This document shows positions 5,246-24,195 of a stretch of DNA of 24,746 nt, one piece after another (positions within the stretch are counted from its first letter, which is position 1; each line of letters starts with the position of its first letter). Origin of the DNA: a virus. Under the pieces are notes generated by a model. That model worked only from the letters and a program-made list of their open reading frames with translations, was not told the DNA's origin and did not search any database. The position numbers and the translations under genes were made by a program. The stretch is from IMG/VR virus record IMGVR_UViG_3300037840_000553, positions 1-24,746 of that record; one strand, given 5' to 3'.

Positions 5246-5531
5246 GGCAAATGACCATAGTGCCGATGCAATCATGGCAGAAGCCGTATCTGGTGTGCCC
5301 AAAGCCTTTGCGCCCTGGCCGTTGGCCTAGGTACAAGTTTCCCATGAAGTGGGAAATGTGCGAGCGGGTATGGGCAACAATCCCGAAAGAGCTTCGCCCT
5401 TGGCCGTTTGAGGATGCTGAACGCTATGTTTGTTCAAGCAGCACGGAGATGTTGCTCAAGGGTTGGCTTAGACGGGAAAAGAACGGCCGCGCCGTTGGTG
5501 AAAATTGGTTGGCCCGGATGGAAGCGGCATA
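5222..5531 (+). repeat. 23-nt direct repeat at two gene ends
   Basis: TTGGCCCGGATGGAAGCGGC followed by ATA occurs at 5222-5244 and again at 5509-5531. Each copy encodes the LARMEAA end of one gene. The first 13 bases also occur near 11784. Confidence 0.8.
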
Positions 5532-5532
5532 A
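5251..5532 (+). CDS. Hypothetical protein
   Basis: A 93-residue frame starting MTIVPMQSWQKPYLVCPKPL, rich in Trp and Pro, with a basic segment KGWLRREKNGRAVG before the shared LARMEAA ending. It follows the previous stop by five bases. Outside the C-terminus it does not resemble its neighbour. No motif or membrane segment. Confidence 0.45.
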   Translation: MTIVPMQSWQKPYLVCPKPLRPGRWPRYKFPMKWEMCERVWATIPKELRPWPFEDAERYVCSSSTEMLLKGWLRREKNGRAVGENWLARMEAA

Positions 5533-5609
5533 GAATTTGACAGAGAGTCCAAAGAGTTATACGGGGCGAAGGCGGCTTACCAAGCTGGTAACCGGCATGA
5601 TATAGCTGT

Positions 5610-5701
5610 TGGTGCCCCCGCCGGGGATCGAACCCGGACAGGCCTCTTGGGGCCTACCAGCATCCAAAGCTGGCCCGTCTACCGAATTCCGGCACGGGGG
5701 C
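5610..5701 (-). tRNA. Leu-type (class II) tRNA with UGG anticodon
   Basis: On the minus strand the acceptor GCCCCCG pairs with CGGGGGC, followed by A73 and an encoded CCA. The D region (CCGGAATTCGGTAGACGG) and the 19-nt variable region with a 5-bp arm (AGGCC/GGCCT) are those of a leucine tRNA. The T arm is CCGGG-TTCGATC-CCCGG. The anticodon stem CCAGC/GCTGG closes the seven-base loop TTTGGAT, giving anticodon UGG, which reads proline CCA. The body and discriminator therefore say leucine and the anticodon says proline. One change from UAG would explain it. Confidence 0.85.
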
Positions 5702-5706
5702 GAAAG

Positions 5707-5783
5707 TGGCGGCCACGCCGGGATTCGCACCCGGGACCTGGGGGTTACGAAACCCCCGCTCTTTCTGGCTGAGCTACGTGGCC
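5707..5783 (-). tRNA. tRNA-Thr(CGT)
   Basis: On the minus strand the acceptor GGCCACG pairs with CGTGGCC, followed by G73 and an encoded CCA. D stem GCTC/GAGC. The anticodon loop TTCGTAA followed by the AGGTC variable loop resembles bacterial tRNA-Thr(CGT). Oddities are a U-C mismatch at the base of the anticodon loop, a D-loop lacking the usual GG, and TGCGAAT instead of TTCGAAT in the T loop. It lies five bases before the Leu-type tRNA and both are antisense to the surrounding genes. Confidence 0.8.
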
Positions 5784-6072
5784 GCTGTAAGTGTCAAATG
5801 GGGAAACCCACCGGGGAGGGCGGTGCTAGTAACACCGCCTTTCCCGGCCCGACCCAAGGGTAGGGCCCGTCGCGCAAGTCGGACTTTTCGAGGCGCGCCG
5901 GGCGATCAGTTAGGTGGGTTCACATCCGCTCTTTAAGTTTGTAAAGTGCATAATTCCGAAAACTTTCGCCCCTCAGCGGTGGTCATAGATCGCGGCGGTT
6001 TTTCTATGGGTCTCCGCTGCGATCTTTTTTTAGTGGCGCTGTTCCCGCGCATTTTCAGCGGTGACAGTGATC
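5784..6072. other. Intergenic region between tRNAs and next unit
   Basis: About 290 nt without a gene. It holds a hairpin with a 7-bp stem (GGCGGTG at 5819-5825, CACCGCC at 5833-5839) followed by TTT, and the strong terminator listed separately. I see no clear leftward promoter for the tRNAs. Confidence 0.5.
5987..6031 (+). terminator. Rho-independent terminator
   Basis: AGATCGCGGCGG at 5987-5998 pairs with CCGCTGCGATCT at 6014-6025, a 12-bp stem with one G-U pair and a 15-nt loop. A run of seven T follows at 6025-6031. It ends the rightward unit starting at the cold-shock region. Confidence 0.85.
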
Positions 6073-6101
6073 TTGCGGGGGTGTATTGACGTGGTTATAA
6101 T
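6073..6101 (+). promoter_or_regulatory. Promoter, TTGCGG-17-TATAAT
   Basis: TTGCGG at 6073-6078, a 17-nt spacer, and a perfect TATAAT at 6096-6101, just after the terminator. The -35 differs from the TTTACC family, so it may belong to another regulatory class. Confidence 0.65.
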
Positions 6102-6145
6102 CCGCGTATAAACTGTTGGAAGAGGCAAACTACGAGGCGGTTCTT

Positions 6146-6364
6146 ATGGAAGGCGATTATGCGGGGCTTGCTGCGAACTTAATATCACCAATAATTGCGC
6201 TCATCGGCTTGGTAATCGTTATTGCCAGCGTACCAATACTTAAACTGTGGCACTCGCCATTTGCTTGTTTTCCAGCGGGATTGTGCATCATTTTTGGAGG
6301 TATCGTGGTCACCGTTTGGCTGATTTTTTGGCTTTTTCCTCCACAGCTGTCTGCTGGTTTCTAG
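6146..6364 (+). CDS. Small membrane protein, two spans
   Basis: A 72-residue product starting MEGDYAGLAANLISPIIALI. Two hydrophobic stretches cover most of it (LISPIIALIGLVIVIASVPI and LCIIFGGIVVTVWLIFWLF), separated by a short loop with Trp, His and Cys. GAGG lies eight bases before the ATG; a TTG at 6116 in the same frame is less likely. It is the first gene after the 6073 promoter. Size and topology fit a holin-like or other phage membrane protein, but there is no adjacent lysin. Confidence 0.6.
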   Translation: MEGDYAGLAANLISPIIALIGLVIVIASVPILKLWHSPFACFPAGLCIIFGGIVVTVWLIFWLFPPQLSAGF

Positions 6365-9064: not shown

Positions 9065-9625
9065 ATGGCCGTCGACCACCGCTCCCCGCCCGCCACCCTG
9101 TACCTCAAGGCCTACGCCGCCGAGGCCAGGGAGCTTTGCGGCCGTGGCGCCTGCGAGGGCGATCTGGCGCGCCACTTCCGGTGCACCCTGCATGACATCC
9201 GGCTCTGGTGCGCCGTGCATAAGGAGTTTGGTGCCGCGGTGCGCGTGGGCGGCGACGCCGCCGATGAGCGGGTCTGCATGGCGCTCTATCAGCGCGCCAC
9301 CGGCTTTAGCTATGACGAGGTAAAGACGGCCACGGTGCCGGGCGGCCTCGACGATGACGGCAACGAGCTGCCCGAGCGCGAGGTGCAGACCGTGACGCGC
9401 AAGTTTGTGGCGCCGGATGCCGGGGCGGCGCAGTATTGGCTGGAGAACAGGCGGCCGGAGGAGTGGGTCAATCGCGTGAAGGTCGATCATAAGTTTGATG
9501 GCTCAGATATCAGGGAAATCTCAACCAAGGAACTTCTCCGCATCGCAGCGATGGACTCCGCCGGAGGCGGCGAGGGAGGTGTTAAACAGATACTCGGCCC
9601 AGGCAAGCCTGATCGGGTTCACTGA
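9065..9625 (+). CDS. terS: Terminase small subunit
   Basis: A 186-residue protein with the usual small-terminase plan. An N-terminal helix-turn-helix region carries ELCGRGACEGDLARHFRCTL and DIRLWCAVHKEFGAAVRVG. The family-typical RVCMALYQRATGFSYDEVK follows, then the oligomerisation and tail region (AAQYWLENRRPEEWVNRV). It recognises phage DNA and loads the large subunit for packaging. The start is the ATG immediately after the upstream stop. The 3' end overlaps the large subunit reading frame, typical of TerS-TerL pairs. Confidence 0.85.
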   Translation: MAVDHRSPPATLYLKAYAAEARELCGRGACEGDLARHFRCTLHDIRLWCAVHKEFGAAVRVGGDAADERVCMALYQRATGFSYDEVKTATVPGGLDDDGNELPEREVQTVTRKFVAPDAGAAQYWLENRRPEEWVNRVKVDHKFDGSDIREISTKELLRIAAMDSAGGGEGGVKQILGPGKPDRVH

Positions 9626-11033
9626 ATATACTTTCCCTCGTTATAGGCCCGCGCCGCACCATCGTAGGATTGCTGAGCAGCTTGAGCGCGTGGAGCGCGG
9701 TGAAGTCGATCGGCTTATGTTGCTCGTGCCGCCGCGCCATGGGAAGTCAGAGCTTGCATCGCGCCGCTTTCCGGCGCGCTATCTGGGCAAATTTCCGCAT
9801 CGCCAGATTATAAGCGCCAGCGCCAGCTCCGAGCTTGCGGTCGATTTCGGCCGTGACGTGCGCAACATCATCGGAAGCGTTGAGTATGGCCATTTGTATG
9901 ATACGCGATTGTCCAGCGATAGTCAGGCCAAGGACAAGTGGCATACCCAGCAGGGCGGTTTCTATATTAGCATTGGCATCGGCTCCGATGTCATGGGACG
10001 CGGCGCCCATTTGTTCATGATCGACGATCCGTTCGGCACCATGGCCGAGGCGCGTAGCGAAACGCAGCGCCGTGCCGTGTGGTCGTGGTATAGCGGCACG
10101 GCCTACAATCGTTTAGAAGAGAATGCTGCGATTGTTCTGATCAATCATCGCATGCATGAGGATGATCTCACCGGTATGCTGCTTGCCCAGCAGGCGGCGG
10201 GCGGGGATCGGTGGGAGGTGGTAGAGCTTCCCGCCATCGACGATGATGGCGTTGCGCTGTGGCCGGAAAAATATCCGATCGATGCCCTTGAGCGTATCAG
10301 GCGCAATATCCAGGCGGTCGATTGGTCGGCGCTTTATATGCAGAACCCGACCCCGGATGAAGGAACGTTCTTCCTCCGCGATTGGCTGCGTCCCTATATC
10401 GATGTGCCCGAGCGCAGCACGCTCCAGGTTTACGGCGCCAGCGACTTTGCGGTTACCGACGACGGCGGCGACTGGACCGTGCACGGCATCGTGGGCATGG
10501 ACCCCGAGGAGCGCCTATATCTGCTCGACCTTTGGCGCGGCCAGACCGCCAGCGACCAATGGGTCGAGTCCATGTGCGATCTAATCAAGTTGTGGAAGCC
10601 GCTCGGATGGGCGCGCGAGCACGGCCAGATCAAATCTGGCGTTGGGCCGTTCCTCACCAAGATCATGGAGGAGCGCAAGGCCTATGTGGCCTTTGCCGAT
10701 TTCCCGACGCGCGGCGACAAGCGCGTGCGCGCTCAGTCGATCCGGGGCCGCATGGCGATGAAGGGCCTCTATGTACCGGCCCATGCGCCTTGGTATGCAA
10801 CATTCCAGCAGGAGTTGCTGGCCTTTGACGCTGGCAAGCATGATGACCAGGTGGATATGCTAGGCCTGATCGGTCAAATCATAGACAAGATGGTCCCCGG
10901 CCGCCTGCCCGTATCCGTTAAGCCGCGTCCGGTGGTCGGCGTGGGCGCCGGTCAAAGCACCGCCTCGCTCAATGATCTTTGGGCCAATCGCGATATCCAG
11001 GGGCGCAAGCGAACGGCCGGGAGGATACGCTGA
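9579..11033 (+). CDS. terL: Terminase large subunit
   Basis: A DNA-packaging motor of 484 residues from GTG 9579; an ATG at 9498 would add 27 residues that overlap conserved TerS sequence, so I prefer the GTG, which has GGAGGCGGCGAGG upstream. The ATPase domain shows Walker A VPPRHGKSE (near residue 55), Walker B HLFMIDDPFG, and RRAVWSWYSGTAYNRL. The C-terminal nuclease domain begins YGASDFAVTDDGGDWTVHGI, with acidic metal ligands, and ends KHDDQVDMLGLIGQ. Length and motif order are normal. It works with TerS and docks on the portal encoded downstream. Confidence 0.93.
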   Translation: MLNRYSAQASLIGFTEYTFPRYRPAPHHRRIAEQLERVERGEVDRLMLLVPPRHGKSELASRRFPARYLGKFPHRQIISASASSELAVDFGRDVRNIIGSVEYGHLYDTRLSSDSQAKDKWHTQQGGFYISIGIGSDVMGRGAHLFMIDDPFGTMAEARSETQRRAVWSWYSGTAYNRLEENAAIVLINHRMHEDDLTGMLLAQQAAGGDRWEVVELPAIDDDGVALWPEKYPIDALERIRRNIQAVDWSALYMQNPTPDEGTFFLRDWLRPYIDVPERSTLQVYGASDFAVTDDGGDWTVHGIVGMDPEERLYLLDLWRGQTASDQWVESMCDLIKLWKPLGWAREHGQIKSGVGPFLTKIMEERKAYVAFADFPTRGDKRVRAQSIRGRMAMKGLYVPAHAPWYATFQQELLAFDAGKHDDQVDMLGLIGQIIDKMVPGRLPVSVKPRPVVGVGAGQSTASLNDLWANRDIQGRKRTAGRIR

Positions 11034-12247: not shown

Positions 12248-12273
12248 GGGCGCTTTGATGAGGCCTGGTGTTG

Positions 12274-14790
12274 ATGGCCGATGATTTGGATACCAGGGAA
12301 CAAAACCCTCCGGCCGAGCCCGCTGTCTCCGAATTTGACCTGATGGGCGAGCGGTCACGCCGCCTTGCCGCCTATTGGAAGGAACAGATCAGGTCGGTCG
12401 ACGACGATCGCCAGCGCTGGCTGCGCCGCGGGCGCATGATCGAGCGCCGCTACCGCGATGAGCGTAGCCGCGTGGACGAGGAGGGCGTCAAGCGATATGC
12501 GGCGCTCTGGTCCAACGTGGATATTCTCTATCCGGCCATCTTTGGCCGCACCCCGGTGCCCATTGCCGAGCGCCGTTTCCGCGACCGCGATCCCGCCGGA
12601 CGCGGCGCCGCGCAGATGCTGGAGCGCGGCCTGCGCAATGAGATCGAGATTAACGGCTTCGGCGAGGCCATAGGCCAGGCGGTGCTGGACTATCTGCTGC
12701 CGGGGCGCGGCCAGGTCTGGGTGCGTTATGAGCCGGAGATCGAGGAGGGCGTCAGCATCCCCGCCGAAACCGGCATGGACCTGCGAGATGCGCGCGGCGA
12801 TATTGAGGAGGAGGATGATAGCGAGGCCGAGGAGAAATTCCGCTATACCGGCGATAGGGTGGTGCGCGAGAGCGTTCCGGTGGACTATGTGAACTGGGCC
12901 GATTTCCGCATGTACCCCGCCAAGGCGCGCGTGTGGAAGGAGGTTTCGGCGGGCAGCAAGACCGTGTTCATGACCCGCGACGATATGGTGCGGCGTTTTG
13001 GCGACGAGATCGGTTCCAAAATTCCGCTCCAGCGCGAGGACCCTGAGCGCCGCGCCCAGCGCGGCAGGCCGCCCAGCGCGGAGAGCGAGGCCGAGGACAA
13101 AGGCGAGATAACCGAAATCTGGTGTCGCACCGACCAGATGGTCTACTGGGTGGCCGAAGGTTACGATTATCTTTGCGATCGCCAGCCCGATCCGCTCAAG
13201 CTGGAAAATTTCTTTCCGTTCCCCAGGCCCATCGCCGCCAATGCCACCAACAATAGCCTGACCCCGGTGCCAGACTATATGCAGTACCAGGATCAGGCAT
13301 TGCAGATCGACCAGCTGGTGCAGCGCATCGATATGCTCACTCGCGCCTGCAAGGTGGCCGGGGTCTATAACGCCGCCGCCAAGGACATTATGCGCCTGCT
13401 GGATGAGTCGGTGGAGAACGAGCTGCTCCCGGTCGATGCCTGGGCGGCCTTCGCCGATAAGGGCGGCGTCGCCGGCCAAGTGAGCTTTTTGCCGCTCCAG
13501 GAGATCATGGGCGTCATCAACGAGCTGCAAACCCAGCTCGAAAAGGTGATTGCGCTCATGGACCGCCTGACCGGCATTACCGACGTGATGCGCGGCACCG
13601 GCGATGCCCGAGAGACGCTCGGGGGCCAGCGCCTCAAGACCAATAACGGCGGAACGCGCCTCACGCGCCGTCAGAACGAGGTGGCGCGCTTCTGCCGCGA
13701 TGTGGTGCGCATCATGGCCGACATCATGTCCACCCATTTCAGCCCGCAATCGCTGATTGAAGCGAGCGGCGCGCTGCTGGAGGAGGGGCTGGGTGCGGTG
13801 GATATGCCTGCAATGACGGCGCTGCCTTTACCTGGGCGCGCGTCCGCGCTACAATTGCCGCCTGCCCAGGTTACTGGGCAATTGCCGGGGCAGCCCCCTC
13901 CCCCCCCTCTCCAAGGGCTCCCTGGTGCGCCGCCCGGTATCGGCTCTCCTATCGCGCCGGGCGGCGCCTCTAATATTGTGCCGTTCCCTGGTGCGTCACC
14001 CTCCGGGACAACGCCAGGAATGGCCATGGCGGGGGGACCTTCGGGGGCAACACAGCCAAGCCCCCCGCCAGAGTTCCAGTCAAAGCTGGAGGCCTTGCAG
14101 CGTATCGCCGCCGCGATCAGGCTGCTGCGCGATGAGCGCCTGCGTGGTTTCAGGGTCGATATCGAGGTGGACACCACTATCTTTGGCGACGCTGTCCAGG
14201 AGAAGGCCGATCGGGTGGAGTTTTTGACCGCCACCACCAAGTTTTTGCAGGTGGCCCAGCAATTGGCCATGCAGGACCCCAAGATGGTGCCGCTGCTCGG
14301 CAAGTTCCTGCAGTTTGGAACGCGCGGCTTCCGGGTCGGGCGCGATTTGGAATCGGCGATCGAGGACTTCGTGGACGAGGCCGAGCGCGCCGCCAAGGCG
14401 CGCGAGGGCCAGCCTCCGCCGCCCAATCCGGCGGCCGACAAGGAAAAGGCCCTGGCCGCCAAGGCCATGGCCGATGCCCAGGGCGTGCAGCAGCGCAACG
14501 CCATCGATGCCCAGAAGGGCCAGATCGATTTGCAGGTTGCCGGCATCAACGCCCAATCCGACCGCGCCAAGGCCCAGGCCGAGGTGCAGCGTCAGCAGGT
14601 GGAGGCCCAGAGCGAGGCAGTCAATAGCCAGGCCGACCTGCAGCAGGCAGCTGCCGACCTGGAGATGCGAAAGCTGGAAATGCAAATCGAGCATATGCGC
14701 TTGCAGATCGAGCTTGCCAAGCTGCACGGTCAGGCGCAACAGCAAGCCCATGAGCGCGCCATGCCGCAACAGGGAGCGGGGGGCTTATGA
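12274..14790 (+). CDS. Portal protein
   Basis: A large protein of 838 residues between terL and the scaffold gene, where the portal is expected. The N-terminal part is typical of long (P22-type) portals: LAAYWKEQIRSVDDDRQRWL, RRYRDERSRVDEEGVKRYAA, then NVDILYPAIFGRTPVPIAER. The middle (ALWSN, RLKTNNGGTRLTRRQNEVAR, IMADIMSTHFSP) fits the wing and stem region. A Pro/Gly-rich linker (GQLPGQPPPPPLQGLPGAPP) precedes a C-terminal Gln/Ala coiled coil, as in portals with a barrel. The dodecameric portal ring is the DNA channel and docking site for terminase. ATG 12274 is chosen over a GTG two codons upstream. Confidence 0.9.
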   Translation: MADDLDTREQNPPAEPAVSEFDLMGERSRRLAAYWKEQIRSVDDDRQRWLRRGRMIERRYRDERSRVDEEGVKRYAALWSNVDILYPAIFGRTPVPIAERRFRDRDPAGRGAAQMLERGLRNEIEINGFGEAIGQAVLDYLLPGRGQVWVRYEPEIEEGVSIPAETGMDLRDARGDIEEEDDSEAEEKFRYTGDRVVRESVPVDYVNWADFRMYPAKARVWKEVSAGSKTVFMTRDDMVRRFGDEIGSKIPLQREDPERRAQRGRPPSAESEAEDKGEITEIWCRTDQMVYWVAEGYDYLCDRQPDPLKLENFFPFPRPIAANATNNSLTPVPDYMQYQDQALQIDQLVQRIDMLTRACKVAGVYNAAAKDIMRLLDESVENELLPVDAWAAFADKGGVAGQVSFLPLQEIMGVINELQTQLEKVIALMDRLTGITDVMRGTGDARETLGGQRLKTNNGGTRLTRRQNEVARFCRDVVRIMADIMSTHFSPQSLIEASGALLEEGLGAVDMPAMTALPLPGRASALQLPPAQVTGQLPGQPPPPPLQGLPGAPPGIGSPIAPGGASNIVPFPGASPSGTTPGMAMAGGPSGATQPSPPPEFQSKLEALQRIAAAIRLLRDERLRGFRVDIEVDTTIFGDAVQEKADRVEFLTATTKFLQVAQQLAMQDPKMVPLLGKFLQFGTRGFRVGRDLESAIEDFVDEAERAAKAREGQPPPPNPAADKEKALAAKAMADAQGVQQRNAIDAQKGQIDLQVAGINAQSDRAKAQAEVQRQQVEAQSEAVNSQADLQQAAADLEMRKLEMQIEHMRLQIELAKLHGQAQQQAHERAMPQQGAGGL

Positions 14791-20306: not shown

Positions 20307-20549
20307 TTGATATCAAAACCAGCCGTGGGAGAGGGTGATTCGCCCTACCCCGAAAGAATAACGGCCTTGATTTGCATCTACGGCGACACCGCCGGGGGTG
20401 CCTAGTACGCAACCGACCCTTGCTCTTTGCCGTCCTTATGGGGCTCCGACCGCGGGGCTTCGCTGGCTTGCCGGGCGCCTACAAGCGCGGGCGGGCTGGG
20501 GGTGGTGGAGCGGGTTCAATATCAACCAATGCTCAGAGGAGAAATGCAA
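20307..20549. other. Capsid gene leader, no gene seen
   Basis: About 240 nt without a convincing gene or promoter. It has GC-rich short hairpins (for example around 20380-20400) and ends with the capsid ribosome binding site AGAGGAG at 20535-20541. The capsid mRNA therefore seems to have a long structured leader if transcribed from upstream. Confidence 0.4.
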
Positions 20550-23500
20550 ATGGCATTTCCAAATTTGAGCGAGATCGTCACGACGACCCTGCGCAATCGC
20601 ACGGGGGAGTTGGCTGACAACATGTCTTAAGCGGGACATGTCAAACTTGGCGGATTCAGTTCTAACGCTGCGGCATAGCGCAACAACGCAGCACTGCTGC
20701 GCCTTACAAGGCGTGGTGATTGAGTTTGCCACGTAACCGGGTGAATTCGGTGGACCCCCGTTCGCGCGGGCAATACCGAGCCGAGCCGCCATGGATACAA
20801 TTTTGGTGGAAGGCGTAACGCACAGGCCGTGAGTTCCAACAATACTCGGCCCATGAGCGCCCGGCGATTTGTTTAGATCGAAGATATGTGCTGGACTGCT
20901 CCGGTGACGGGCAGATGCGCGCGGATTAAATGCCGGGCGCGGTAACAAAGCGAATCTCAAGACGTTCTCTGGCGGTCGCACGATCGTTCAGGAACTGAAC
21001 TATGCTGATAACCAGACGTTTAGCCAACTAGCGCTCGCCGCTTAAGCAGCTCTAGGTAAAGCGCGTAATCTTTCTCCCAAAACTTTTTCCGGTGCGCTTT
21101 TCCATAAGTGCCTCTGCAAGGGTGACCGTAGTTTGGTTATCCTAATTTAAGCGAGCGACCGTGTAAAGGGCGTCTTAAAACTTCCTCTGATTGACTTGGA
21201 CACCCGGCAGCGGGCGACAAGGCGGAAGGCGCAAGCCACCGTGAACGACTGAGTGAGGAAGCGGCGCAAGCCGATGCGACAGTCTGACCCCCGGCCATAA
21301 CAAGCGAAACCGGGGAGGTGCGTTCGAAGTGATGCGCCCGCGCAGCCGATGCGTAGTAACAATGTGCCAGTGGTACTCAGGTTATCAGACTCTGAACATT
21401 GCTCCGTCGCAGGTCTTCTATATGGAGCCGCACCAGTATCAAGATGCTGGTGACGGAATGTTGGCGAAATCGGTGGACCCCCGCTTATGGGCTATACCGA
21501 GCCAAGCTTGGCCTGTCCAAGCGTGTGTAACGAGCATGTGCCAACCCCGAAAGGGAAGATGTGCTCTGCTCTGCGTAGCAATGCGCAGTTAAACAGAATA
21601 GGCACCGCGGCAGAGTATCCCATCCGCCAGGCTGCAGTCGCAGTTTCAATCTCCGGCCTGGAGGAACTTCAGAATAGTGGTGAAGAAGCAATCATCGATC
21701 TGCTAGAGTCGCGGATCATGAATGCAGAAGACACGTTCATGAACGGTTGAAAGGCCGTTTTAAAACCGGGTGAATTCGGTGAAATTCTTAAAGTGCGGAT
21801 GCTGTCAGATGGACCCCCGCGTAATGGCTGCGTCCATCAAGGCATATCGCAAGGCAAATCCCAATGTTGGCGCGAATTGGAGTTGGAGCGTCAAACACAA
21901 CGTACGGGAATGCCTTGCCGCACAGAAAGAAAATATCGAGCCAAGTCGCAAGCCCAGTGCTGCGGAAGGTGTAGAGACTAACAGCCCCCGGCGGCCCCCG
22001 CAAAGGGCCTGATGATATAGTCCGATCTAGGCAGCAATGCCCAGCTAACAGGGAAAGCTTTCCCAAGGCGTCTACGGCGACGGCTCCGTCACCAACAGCG
22101 TCGGCGGCCTCCAGCTGCTTGTCGCTTCCAGCCCGACCACGGGCGTTGTCGGCGGGATTGATCGAAGCATATGGTCATTTTGGCAAAATCAGGCTTGGTC
22201 CGCCGGTGCCAACGGCGGCACCGTGCTGTCATCCTCCACCATCCTCCAGCAGATGGACTCGCTCTGGGTCCAGCTGGTGCGCGGCCGGGACTTCCCGGAT
22301 CTGATCGTGGCCGATAACAACACCTACAAGTATTACCTGAATGCGCTTCAGTCGATTCAGCGCATCCAGACCGAGAACGGCGCGCCGGACATGGCCGAGG
22401 CCGGGTTCCAGTCGCTCAAGTACCTCAACTCCGATGTGGTGCTTGACGGCGGGTTCCAGGGCTTCCAGGCCGATCCGCTGCCGCCGCAGCTGTCTTCGTC
22501 CACCTCGGCGGTGGGCGGGGCGCCTGCGACTACGATGTACTTCCTCAATACCAAGTACCTAAATTCATTGGGCTTTTTCGCAGTAAGGCCCTCCAAGGCC
22601 ACAGGGCGAAAACAGAATGCCAGCAAAGTCGGCGGATACCCGCAAGGGCAATGCCGAGCCAAGCAGGGGCGCAAACCCCGGGCGTGTGTAACGAGCAGAT
22701 GCTGGCCTCGGAAGAGAAGGTGTGCTCTGAGCTGCGCAGCGATGCGCAGAGGCGTGCGCAAGCACAGCCCCCTGGCCGCGTCCGGGAGCAACATATCTGG
22801 CACTGGCGTCCGCACGCGCGGCGCAACATGGTTCAAGCCGAGCCTCAAGCGGGGGCGACCCCGCGCTGATAATTGGGTGAATTCGGGGAACCCCCACTTA
22901 GGGCAATCCCGAGCCAAGCTGCTGAAAAGCGGAAGGTGTAGAGACTAAGAGCGCCCAACATCCCCAGCGGATGAAGATATAGTCCGATCCAGCCGGCGAC
23001 GGTTGGCTAACGCAAATGACCGCTTGATCCTGACCGTTTCTCAATTAATCAGGACGCGATGATTTTGGAATAAAACTTGGTCATCGTTAAACTGGGTGAA
23101 TTCGGGGAATCCCCCTCTCAAGGGGCAATCCCGAGCCGAGCCGCGAGAGCGGAAGGTGTAGAGACTAGCAGCGCCCGGCGCCCCATAGGGGGCGATGATA
23201 TAGTCCGAACAACCGTGTGAACGGTTGATGAAGAACACAACGCAGGTTGATTGGATGGGCCGGTTTGTCATAGAGCCGGCATTAAATCGGGAGAATTCGG
23301 TGGAACCCCGCAAGGGCAACGCCGAGCCGAGCCGCGAGAGCGGAAGGTGTAGAGACTAGGCGCAACCGCGCCCTCGACCCCCCGGCGCCGCAACGCGAAG
23401 ACATAGTCCGTTCTGCATGGAAATGTGCAGTTAACACCTGAAGAATATGACCCTGTCCAATGCGTGAGATTGCGCTCCGGTGAGCGAAAAGCCGCCGGCA

Positions 23501-23676
23501 AACATTGGGTGAATTCGGGGAACCCCCGCAAGGGCAATCCCGAGCCAAGCCGCTAATGGCGGAAGGTGTAGAGACTAGCAGCGCCCAACGCCCTTCACAG
23601 AGGCGATGATATAGTCCGAGCTGCGTGGCGACATGCAGGTAACGCAACTGTCCTCCAGGGCATCCTGACGGCCTAG
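20550..23676 (+). CDS. Major capsid protein, eleven exons
   Basis: Exons: 20550-20627, 20679-20717, 20953-21020, 21367-21417, 21603-21747, 22058-22560, 22800-22832, 23019-23063, 23243-23264, 23444-23465, 23645-23676. Joined length is 1038 nt, one open frame of 345 codons plus stop. The product reads as a phage coat protein: MAFPNLSEIVTTTLRNRTGE, LADNMS/RNNAALLRLTRRG, LKTFSGGRTIVQELNYADNQ, TF/QWYSGYQTL, AAEYPIRQAAVAVSISGLEE, LQNSGEEAIIDLLESRI, YFLNTKYLHWRPHARRNMVP, LDPDRFSINQDAMIRLIGWA, GNMTLSNASTVLQGILTA. It follows the scaffold gene, as expected. ATG 20550 has AGGAG eight bases upstream. Boundaries were set by requiring U before each 5' site, G at each intron end, frame, and family continuity; the exon 6/7 junction could shift by one base without changing the protein. 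Without splicing, translation stops after 26 codons. Confidence 0.93.
20628..20678 (+). ncRNA. Intervening sequence 1: core-less group I intron remnant
   Basis: Only 51 nt. Exon 1 end ACATGTCT (20620-20627) pairs with 20634-20641 in an 8-bp P1 with U-G at the splice site and a six-base loop. The loop GCG can pair with the first bases CGC of exon 2 (P10). The next bases (AAACTTGGCGGATTC) resemble the stretch after P1 in intron 8 (AAACTGGGTGAATTC), but are directly joined to an intron-end-like AGTTCTAACG. Q, R, S and P4-P8 are all missing. Confidence 0.75.
20718..20952 (+). ncRNA. Group I intron 2 of capsid gene
   Basis: 235 nt. P1: exon CGTGGT (20712-20717) with GCCACG (20728-20733), ending in U-G. 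Core: GGTGAATTCGGTGGACCCCC, Q-like CAATACCGAGCCGAGCC near 20771. P7 forms between GCACA (20820-20824) and TGTGC (20887-20891), within GTAACGCACAG and AAGATATGTGCTGG. P10 pairs exon 3 AATCTC with GAGTTT (one mismatch). The omega G is 20952. Confidence 0.85.
21021..21366 (+). ncRNA. Group I intron 3, divergent subtype
   Basis: 346 nt. The core differs from the others: GTGAACGACTGAG and GATGCGACAGTCTGACC give P7 GACTG (21247-21251) with CAGTC (21280-21284). The best guide for the 5' site is far away: exon AGACGTT (21014-21020) pairs with GGCGTCT at 21169-21175 in seven pairs ending in U-G, so about 148 nt sit in the P1 loop. Omega G is 21366. The insert has no ORF. Confidence 0.75.
21418..21602 (+). 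ncRNA. Group I intron 4 of capsid gene
   Basis: 185 nt. A P2-like hairpin CACCAG/CTGGTG follows the P1 region. Core: AATCGGTGGACCCCCG, Q-like CTATACCGAGCCAAGC, P7 GAGCA (21532-21536) with TGCTC (21562-21566). P1 is short, exon CTT with GAG plus GG/CC across a bulge. Omega G is 21602. Same R/S type as introns 2 and 6. Confidence 0.8.
21748..22057 (+). ncRNA. Group I intron 5, with insert and small ORF
   Basis: 310 nt. P1: GAACGGT (21741-21747) with GCCGTTT (21754-21760), ending in U-G. P10: exon 6 CTTTC with intron GAAAG (21749-21753), both textbook. P7 GACTA (21976-21980) with TAGTC (22018-22022) in GTGTAGAGACTAAC and GATGATATAGTCCG. About 130 extra nt lie between the P4 5' strand and ATCGAGCCAAG, that is in P5, and hold an open frame from ATG 21812 (MDPRVMAASIKAYRKANPNV) to 22012. 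The ORF product is not recognised. Confidence 0.88.
22561..22799 (+). ncRNA. Group I intron 6 of capsid gene
   Basis: 239 nt. Core: Q-like CAATGCCGAGCCAAGC near 22641, P7 GAGCA (22693-22697) with TGCTC (22723-22727) within GTGTGTAACGAGCAG and GAAGGTGTGCTCTGAG. P1 is weak (exon CCT with GGG). The end is long after S, about 70 nt. Splicing gives TKY-L-HWRPH, continuous with the capsid family. Confidence 0.82.
22833..23018 (+). ncRNA. Group I intron 7 of capsid gene
   Basis: 186 nt. Core: GGTGAATTCGGGGAACCCCC, CAATCCCGAGCCAAGC, P7 GACTA (22943-22947) with TAGTC (22980-22984). P1: exon TGGT with GCCG (22837-22840), four pairs with terminal U-G and a four-base loop. Omega G is 23018. Splicing joins MV and PLDPDRF. 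Confidence 0.85.
23064..23242 (+). ncRNA. Group I intron 8 of capsid gene
   Basis: 179 nt. P1: exon GCGATGAT pairs over eight positions with GTCATCGT (23080-23087), ending in U-G. P10: exon 9 CAGGTT with AACTTG (23074-23079), six pairs. Core CAATCCCGAGCCGAGCC; P7 GACTA (23163-23167) with TAGTC (23201-23205); a P9 hairpin CAACCG/CGGTTG follows. Confidence 0.9.
23265..23443 (+). ncRNA. Group I intron 9 of capsid gene
   Basis: 179 nt. P1: exon GCCGGT (23259-23264) with GCCGGC (23275-23280), six pairs ending in U-G. Bases TATGAC of exon 10 can pair with GTCATA (23267-23272). Core GCAACGCCGAGCCGAGCC, close to the well-studied Azoarcus intron; P7 GACTA (23354-23358) with TAGTC (23404-23408). Omega G 23443; 23440 would add one Lys codon. 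Confidence 0.88.
23466..23644 (+). ncRNA. Group I intron 10 of capsid gene
   Basis: 179 nt. P1: exon GCGT with GCGC (23472-23475), four pairs ending in U-G. Core CAATCCCGAGCCAAGC; P7 GACTA (23573-23577) with TAGTC (23612-23616); P9 hairpin CTGCGTGG...CATGCAG. Omega G 23644. Splicing joins SNA-S-TVLQGILTA and the stop. Confidence 0.87.
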
Positions 23677-23712
23677 TAAGGGCTTTACACAGGAACCCTA
23701 ACATGCTTTAGG

Positions 23713-23749
23713 TTGGGGGCATCAACGGATAAATCCCAGATGCCCCCAA
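23713..23749 (+). promoter_or_regulatory. Start-codon hairpin of the HNH gene
   Basis: TTGGGGGCAT at 23713-23722 and ATGCCCCCAA at 23740-23749 are a perfect 10-bp inverted repeat. The second arm begins with the HNH gene ATG, so folding would hide the start codon. GGAT/ATCC can form a smaller nested stem in the loop. Confidence 0.6.
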
Positions 23750-24195
23750 TCGAACTTGACTTGACTGGAATGGTTTTTGGCAGCCTGCGTGTTCTCAAGC
23801 GCAGCTACTTTTCCGAGCGTAAACACTGGTACTGGCTTTGCCGGTGTGATTGCGGCAACGAGCTTGAAGTACGGGACACGCGCCTAACCGGCGGCAACCG
23901 GCGTTCTTGTGGCTGTCAGGCCAGCTACCGTACCCATGGCATGACTGGCACGCGCACCCATAAGACCTACGAAACCATGATGTCGCGCTGCTATGTCGAA
24001 ACCGACTCCAGCTACGATAGCTACGGCGGCCGGGGCATTACGATTTGCGAGCGCTGGCATAAATTCGAAAATTTCCTTGCCGACATGGGTGAGCGCCCCC
24101 AGGACCGAACTCTTGACCGCATAAAGAATGATGAAGGTTACAGCAAGGAAAACTGCCGCTGGGCAACGCTCGGAACAGCAACTCAACAAGCGTAA
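23740..24195 (+). CDS. HNH endonuclease, homing-type
   Basis: A 151-residue product. The N-terminal part has a small Cys ribbon (WYWLCRCDCGNELEVRDTRL, then NRRSCGC). The C-terminal part is a phage HNH pattern: TYETMMSRCY, YGGRGITICERWHKFENFLA, DMGERPQDRTLDRIKNDEGY, then NCRWAT. Free-standing genes of this type cut DNA and often mobilise themselves or nearby introns. ATG 23740 is used; a TTG at 23713 in frame would start inside the hairpin. It follows the capsid stop by about 60 nt, so it could serve the capsid introns in trans. The frame ends abruptly after NCRWAT, with an extension in another frame. Confidence 0.8.
   Translation: MPPIELDLTGMVFGSLRVLKRSYFSERKHWYWLCRCDCGNELEVRDTRLTGGNRRSCGCQASYRTHGMTGTRTHKTYETMMSRCYVETDSSYDSYGGRGITICERWHKFENFLADMGERPQDRTLDRIKNDEGYSKENCRWATLGTATQQA

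Follow-up and report, generated by a model that had tools for sequence, protein, structure and literature searches.

The window, by which is meant the whole stretch of DNA that was analysed, is a 24,746-base IMG/VR virus fragment of 60% G+C that carries phage head genes for the small and large terminase, the portal and the major capsid protein. In the phage collection that was searched, known phages gave no DNA match to the window, and the tRNA at 5610-5701 was likewise without a DNA match in known phages and plasmids. This tRNA gene and a second one, separated by 5 nt, are encoded on the minus strand, with the head genes on the other, and a weak scan of 5400-6200 found no promoter-like site on the tRNA strand. 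The features on which the analysis draws are the following.

5610-5701, minus strand: class II tRNA with a Leu-type body, anticodon UGG (Pro, codon CCA), A73 and an encoded CCA end, identified by ARAGORN, Rfam, sequence, masked comparison and covariation
5662-5668, minus strand: anticodon loop UUUGGAU of this tRNA (U34 G35 G36 A37), from sequence
5707-5783, minus strand: second tRNA, 5 nt upstream of the Leu-type tRNA, with an Arg(CCU)-like body and the loop UUCGUAA, giving anticodon CGU (Thr, codon ACG), identified by ARAGORN, RF00005 and homologues
9495-11033, plus strand: large terminase (phrog_38, E 1.6e-101), used in the codon test
12268-14790, plus strand: portal protein (phrog_12082, E 9.4e-171), used in the codon test

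The major capsid gene (20538-23677, plus strand) is interrupted by many group I introns, three of which score above the Rfam cut-off (22823-23006, 23029-23227 and 23445-23638) and two below it (23255-23430 and 21692-22044). Judged by homology to the unsplit capsid of contig L024, its coding sequence would be in about 10 pieces, some as short as 14-27 nt. An HNH endonuclease gene (23713-24195) comes next after the capsid region.

ARAGORN calls the first of the two genes tRNA-Pro(tgg), c[5610,5701], 92 nt, a label that arises because the program goes by the anticodon, and RF00005 matches 5613-5701 with 49.6 bits (gathering score 29, E 5e-8). The acceptor stem has 7 bp (GCCCCCG/CGGGGGC), the D arm is of the Leu type by sequence, the anticodon stem (CCAGC/GCTGG) encloses the loop TTTGGAT, and the T arm reads CCGGG-TTCGATC-CCCGG. 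The variable arm, TAGGCCCCAAGAGGCCTGT, contains a 5-bp stem (AGGCC/GGCCT) and has the length of a class II arm, and all stems of the molecule are fully paired. The earlier note had described a leucine-shaped tRNA with a proline anticodon here, and ARAGORN, RF00005 and the sequence bear this out, together with its coordinates, the reading of TTTGGAT as UGG, the long variable arm and A73, the gene lying on the minus strand. For the unmodified RNA the calculated minimum-energy fold is -49.1 kcal/mol versus -43.8 kcal/mol for the cloverleaf, such that the predicted optimum is a non-cloverleaf structure.

Which amino acid is such a molecule likely to carry? The determinants of E. coli LeuRS are A73, A15-U48, G18G19, A20a and contacts between the D and T loops, with the anticodon being irrelevant, while C2-G71 acts against SerRS (PMC9976931), in agreement with the earlier assertion that E. 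coli LeuRS does not rely on the anticodon. All of the LeuRS determinants that can be read from a sequence are found in the 5610-5701 tRNA (A73, A14, A15-U48, G18G19, A20a, G18:U55, G19-C56 and U54:A58), and C2-G71 is also present; A35, which is common to all E. coli Leu isoacceptors, is replaced by G35 in UGG. Isotype was also compared, with the query anticodon masked, using profiles built for the purpose from the tRNAs in the collected loci. The 5610-5701 tRNA scores 22.7 bits with Leu and 14.4 with Ser, with Pro outside the top six, and its relatives similarly score Leu first. As a control, a class II Pro tRNA of phage contig L090 comes out with Pro on top, and the masked comparison can therefore separate Leu from Pro. 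As the profiles are small (41 Leu and 35 Pro sequences), charging by LeuRS, which the earlier note had advanced, is something that we infer, soundly, from the identity elements rather than report as a result.

A pattern joining Leu-type D and T arms to an NGG anticodon hit viral contigs at 67 stretches and genomes at 106. Requiring the same arm pattern and no fewer than 80 nt, ARAGORN confirmed UGG tRNAs in 8 viral and 20 genomic cases, along with some that have AGG. The 5610-5701 tRNA sits within a rare sub-family having the D arm GTGCCG...CGG, where the other UGG members are a viral one (L082) and two from MAGs (L227 and L236), and the AGG members come from alphaproteobacteria (L155, L177 and L185). 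The closest of these, in a Rhodospirillaceae MAG (L236), shows 90% identity along the full 92 nt, and relatives at 79-90% identity keep a Pro anticodon, either UGG or AGG. Across six members of the sub-family, 99.3% of stem cells are paired and 8 pairs are changed on both sides, in four of the five stems, namely the acceptor, anticodon, variable and T arms; this level of covariation was reached by none of 500 shuffles and also exceeds all slid controls. The covariation and the retained Pro anticodon favour the view that selection has kept the tRNA functional and, because the anticodon is kept while the stems covary, a sequencing or base-calling error or a fresh mutation is unlikely.

Besides the 90% identical gene, the Rhodospirillaceae MAG encodes an ordinary class I tRNA-Pro(UGG) with C1-G72 (L442), a tRNA-Pro(GGG), and ordinary Leu tRNAs with the anticodons CAA, UAG, CAG and GAG; its Pro tRNAs carry C1-G72. 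The Leu-shaped UGG tRNA of this organism is therefore an extra gene, one that would compete with the normal tRNA-Pro at CCA. To judge from the similarity of the tRNAs alone, the host of the window phage may be the same kind of bacterium.

In three of the six aligned members (L082, L177 and L236) a transposase of the IS1595 type is encoded no more than about 2 kb away, but the idea of a transposon passenger is rejected, as no terminal repeats with a target duplication were found around the tRNA. Copying of an ordinary host tRNA-Leu by the phage is also unsupported, with none of 289 alphaproteobacterial genomes matching at E 1e-4 apart from the genome that holds the UGG relative. A related small gene with no assigned function follows the Leu-UGG tRNA in L429 (the L082 contig) and L227 (..KRKRGPEPERVKIDEDW.. 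/ ..KRKPGPEAERVKIEGDW..), and an HTH-ImmA/IrrE gene is found just upstream in L082. The AGG members L155 (1448-2044) and L177 (2763-3434) have a common upstream gene for a HARE-HTH-like protein (..TNLAS.LS...FRSVIYK...WWLT..), with the Pfam HARE-HTH match seen for the L155 copy only and not for that of L177. Truncated 5' parts of relatives occur in the viral contig L427 (1480-1533) and in L609, whose 35-nt exact match to the L227 tRNA breaks off directly behind the anticodon.

The neighbouring tRNA at 5707-5783 has an anomaly of its own. It scores 58.2 bits with RF00005, has G73 and an encoded CCA, and leaves ARAGORN undecided between Arg and Thr, while the masked isotype comparison gives Arg. 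Matches at 73-78% identity were found in 35 of 190 alphaproteobacterial genomes, and the ten homologues examined are all tRNA-Arg (nine CCU and one UCU). A single C35G change converts the Arg(CCU) loop UUCCUAA into the UUCGUAA of the phage gene, and thus into CGU (Thr). Both phage tRNAs, then, combine the body of one amino acid with the anticodon of another, and both have G35; the mismatch of the neighbour is new relative to the earlier note, and the parallel between the two genes is one of sequence only. As ArgRS of E. coli recognises C35 whereas ThrRS recognises G35 and U36, the neighbour, unlike the Leu-type tRNA, may now truly be Thr-specific. It has also lost G18 and U55, having A18 and G55 instead, and contains a U31.C39 mismatch; decay is another possibility.

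The tRNA structure, the Pro anticodon and the Leu identity elements of the 5610-5701 gene can be established from its sequence, and the explanation that best accommodates them, to which we give a probability of about 0.55, is that of a Leu-charged accessory tRNA that could mistranslate Pro as Leu at a low level. Such a gene would derive from a tRNA-Leu whose anticodon became UGG while its leucine identity was kept, and since that identity is kept LeuRS should charge it with leucine. Once transcribed, matured, charged by LeuRS and admitted to the ribosome, the tRNA would compete with host tRNA-Pro(UGG) at CCA and, should U34 be modified, perhaps also at CCG and CCU, with Leu being inserted for Pro at some low level. 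The tRNA may or may not act as the recoding or host-interference device, misreading CCA, that the earlier note suggested. Recoding itself finds no support, as CCA is neither enriched in the phage nor placed at Leu columns: it makes up 6 of 144 Pro codons in the homology-supported core genes, not different from the 79 of 1133 for other A-ending four-fold codons (p 0.28), and in alignments to relatives, with just 15 cells available, it meets Pro in 8 and Leu in one. In the terminase core CCA is used in none of 27 Pro codons, the third lowest of 81 relative to other A-ending codons, which is at most a hint of CCA avoidance; low CCA use would limit self-damage to the phage. The absence of a recoding sign in CCA use joins the predicted non-cloverleaf fold and the lack of a promoter-like site in the weak scan as points against a Leu-charged tRNA, and the lost elbow bases of the neighbour could mean that the cassette as a whole is decaying.

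An alternative, which we regard as unlikely, takes up this last point and considers the gene to be a relic from a bacterial or mobile source that is short-lived and either poorly expressed or kept out of translation, its structure persisting because the decay is recent. Consistent with this are the missing G18 and U55 and the 31:39 mismatch in the neighbour, the weak calculated fold, the truncated 5' pieces in L427 and L609, and a patchy distribution: no such Leu-shaped tRNA is present in the stretches examined from 80 terminase relatives (L002-L081), and the D-arm pattern occurs in just one of 385 alphaproteobacterial genomes, that one being the reference genome itself. However, the fully paired stems and encoded CCA of the tRNA count against this, as do the compensatory changes of the sub-family in its acceptor, anticodon, variable and T arms with the Pro anticodon kept.

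Less probable again is a role as a decoy or replacement against a host anticodon-loop nuclease directed at tRNA-Leu or tRNA-Pro, which the altered loop would titrate or evade. Phage tRNAs with anticodon-loop changes have indeed been proposed to escape host tRNA nucleases (PMC10264068), and both tRNAs of the window have altered loops. Yet as a rule phages do not encode tRNAs whose cleavage site is in the anticodon itself (PMC10264068), a replacement must decode the right codon whereas the 5610-5701 tRNA restores no Leu codon, and a nuclease of this kind is not known from the host.

It is very doubtful that the gene is a remoulded Pro tRNA, charged with proline despite its shape and supplementing CCA decoding. 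Bacterial ProRS uses G35, G36, A73, C1-G72 and the G15-C48 Levitt pair (PMC9976931), and the UGG tRNA does have G35, G36 and A73; moreover, the phage contigs L090 and L119, in which some 20 tRNA genes together serve most amino acids, have as the sole Pro tRNA found in them a class II molecule with C1-G72, and class II shape alone therefore does not forbid Pro identity. The A73 is, though, common to Leu and Pro, and the other ProRS determinants outside the anticodon are absent: there is G1-C72 in all six aligned relatives in place of the C1-G72 that the bacterial enzyme needs and that the genuine Pro tRNAs of the closest-relative MAG have, and A15-U48 in place of G15-C48. The variable arm is long, unlike a class I loop, and the masked comparison keeps Pro out of the top six. 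That the two tRNAs form a deliberate mistranslation cassette (a Leu body on Pro CCA and an Arg body on Thr ACG, both via G35), expressed in infection and altering host or phage proteins at chosen codons, is just as improbable.

Odd anticodons recur on this body. With the same arm pattern, the viral contigs contain 8 tRNAs with UGG, 8 with GUG (His) and 7 with UUA (ochre), next to no fewer than 119 Leu tRNAs of the canonical NAG type; UGG, GUG and UUA all being found, the idea that UGG is unique to the Leu-like body is rejected. Class II tRNAs with the His anticodon occur in L287, L297, L301, L306, L309, L312 and L314, and most have an extra 5' G and C73, features suggesting that they are truly His tRNAs despite the Leu-like body. 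Leu-shaped ochre tRNAs in L336, L349, L358, L370, L378 and L414 are probable stop-codon suppressors. Many of the viral CGG matches are hairpins with a UUCG tetraloop rather than anticodons. The tRNA-like genes concerned, in phage contigs L098, L112, L122, L125, L126, L131, L134, L136, L146 and L147, combine a Leu-like D arm and a long variable arm with the hairpin CTCCC-TTCG-GGGAG in place of the anticodon loop, and ARAGORN reports them as Arg(tcg) or Pro(ggg).

What would such tRNAs mean for the phages that carry them? If the UGG tRNA is charged with leucine, the phage would possess an adaptor of natural origin that violates the code at Pro codons, and the repeated occurrence in phage contigs of Leu-shaped tRNAs carrying other anticodons would open mistranslation driven by phages to experimental test. 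Should it stay idle, it would show that some phages keep tRNA genes whose activity would do harm, and that an anticodon-only annotation gives such genes the wrong label, as with the tRNA-Pro call of ARAGORN.

Mismatches between body and anticodon are already known in nature, from nev-tRNAs, tRNA-ProX, allo-tRNAs and the CUG-Ser tRNAs of yeasts, while the open papers, a limited literature, yielded no report of a phage-borne Leu-type tRNA with a Pro anticodon. The best natural analogue is provided by the nematode nev-tRNAs, nev-tRNA-Gly(CCC) and nev-tRNA-Ile(UAU), which are leucylated in vitro but give no detectable misincorporation in vivo (PMC4300185), a precedent that would weigh against mistranslation by the phage tRNA. 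They are nuclear eukaryotic genes with other anticodons and demonstrated charging, whereas the phage gene lies on a phage contig, has UGG and takes its identity from sequence; it is thus not a nev-tRNA, and the likeness is at most one of working. The tRNA-ProX of Streptomyces and Kitasatospora is also a natural bacterial mismatch (PMC11415595), but one that runs in the opposite direction, with a Pro body carrying an Ala, Asn or Thr anticodon, and is not phage-borne; its A33, A15-A48 and G21 contrast with the U33, A15-U48 and Leu body of the phage tRNA, which falls outside this group.

The metagenomic allo-tRNAs have many non-cognate anticodons, with some near transposon genes and the amino acid set by the body (PMC7609411). 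However, they possess a 12-bp acceptor branch arranged as 8/4 or 9/3 and are mostly Ser, in contrast to the normal 7/5 arrangement and apparent Leu identity of the phage tRNA, which does not belong with them. The CUG-Ser tRNAs of yeasts, like the phage tRNA, are class II and place one amino acid on the codon of another (PMC11415595), but theirs is a genome-wide change of the host code that puts Ser on a Leu codon, and no code change is seen in the phage. Finally, as a precedent in favour of mistranslation, an engineered yeast tRNA-Ser(UGG) is class II, has the same UGG anticodon and mistranslates CCA, although it is artificial, eukaryotic and carries serine; it is lethal in yeast unless weakened, and the weakened forms mistranslate CCA at 0.4 and 5.2% (PMC6827378).
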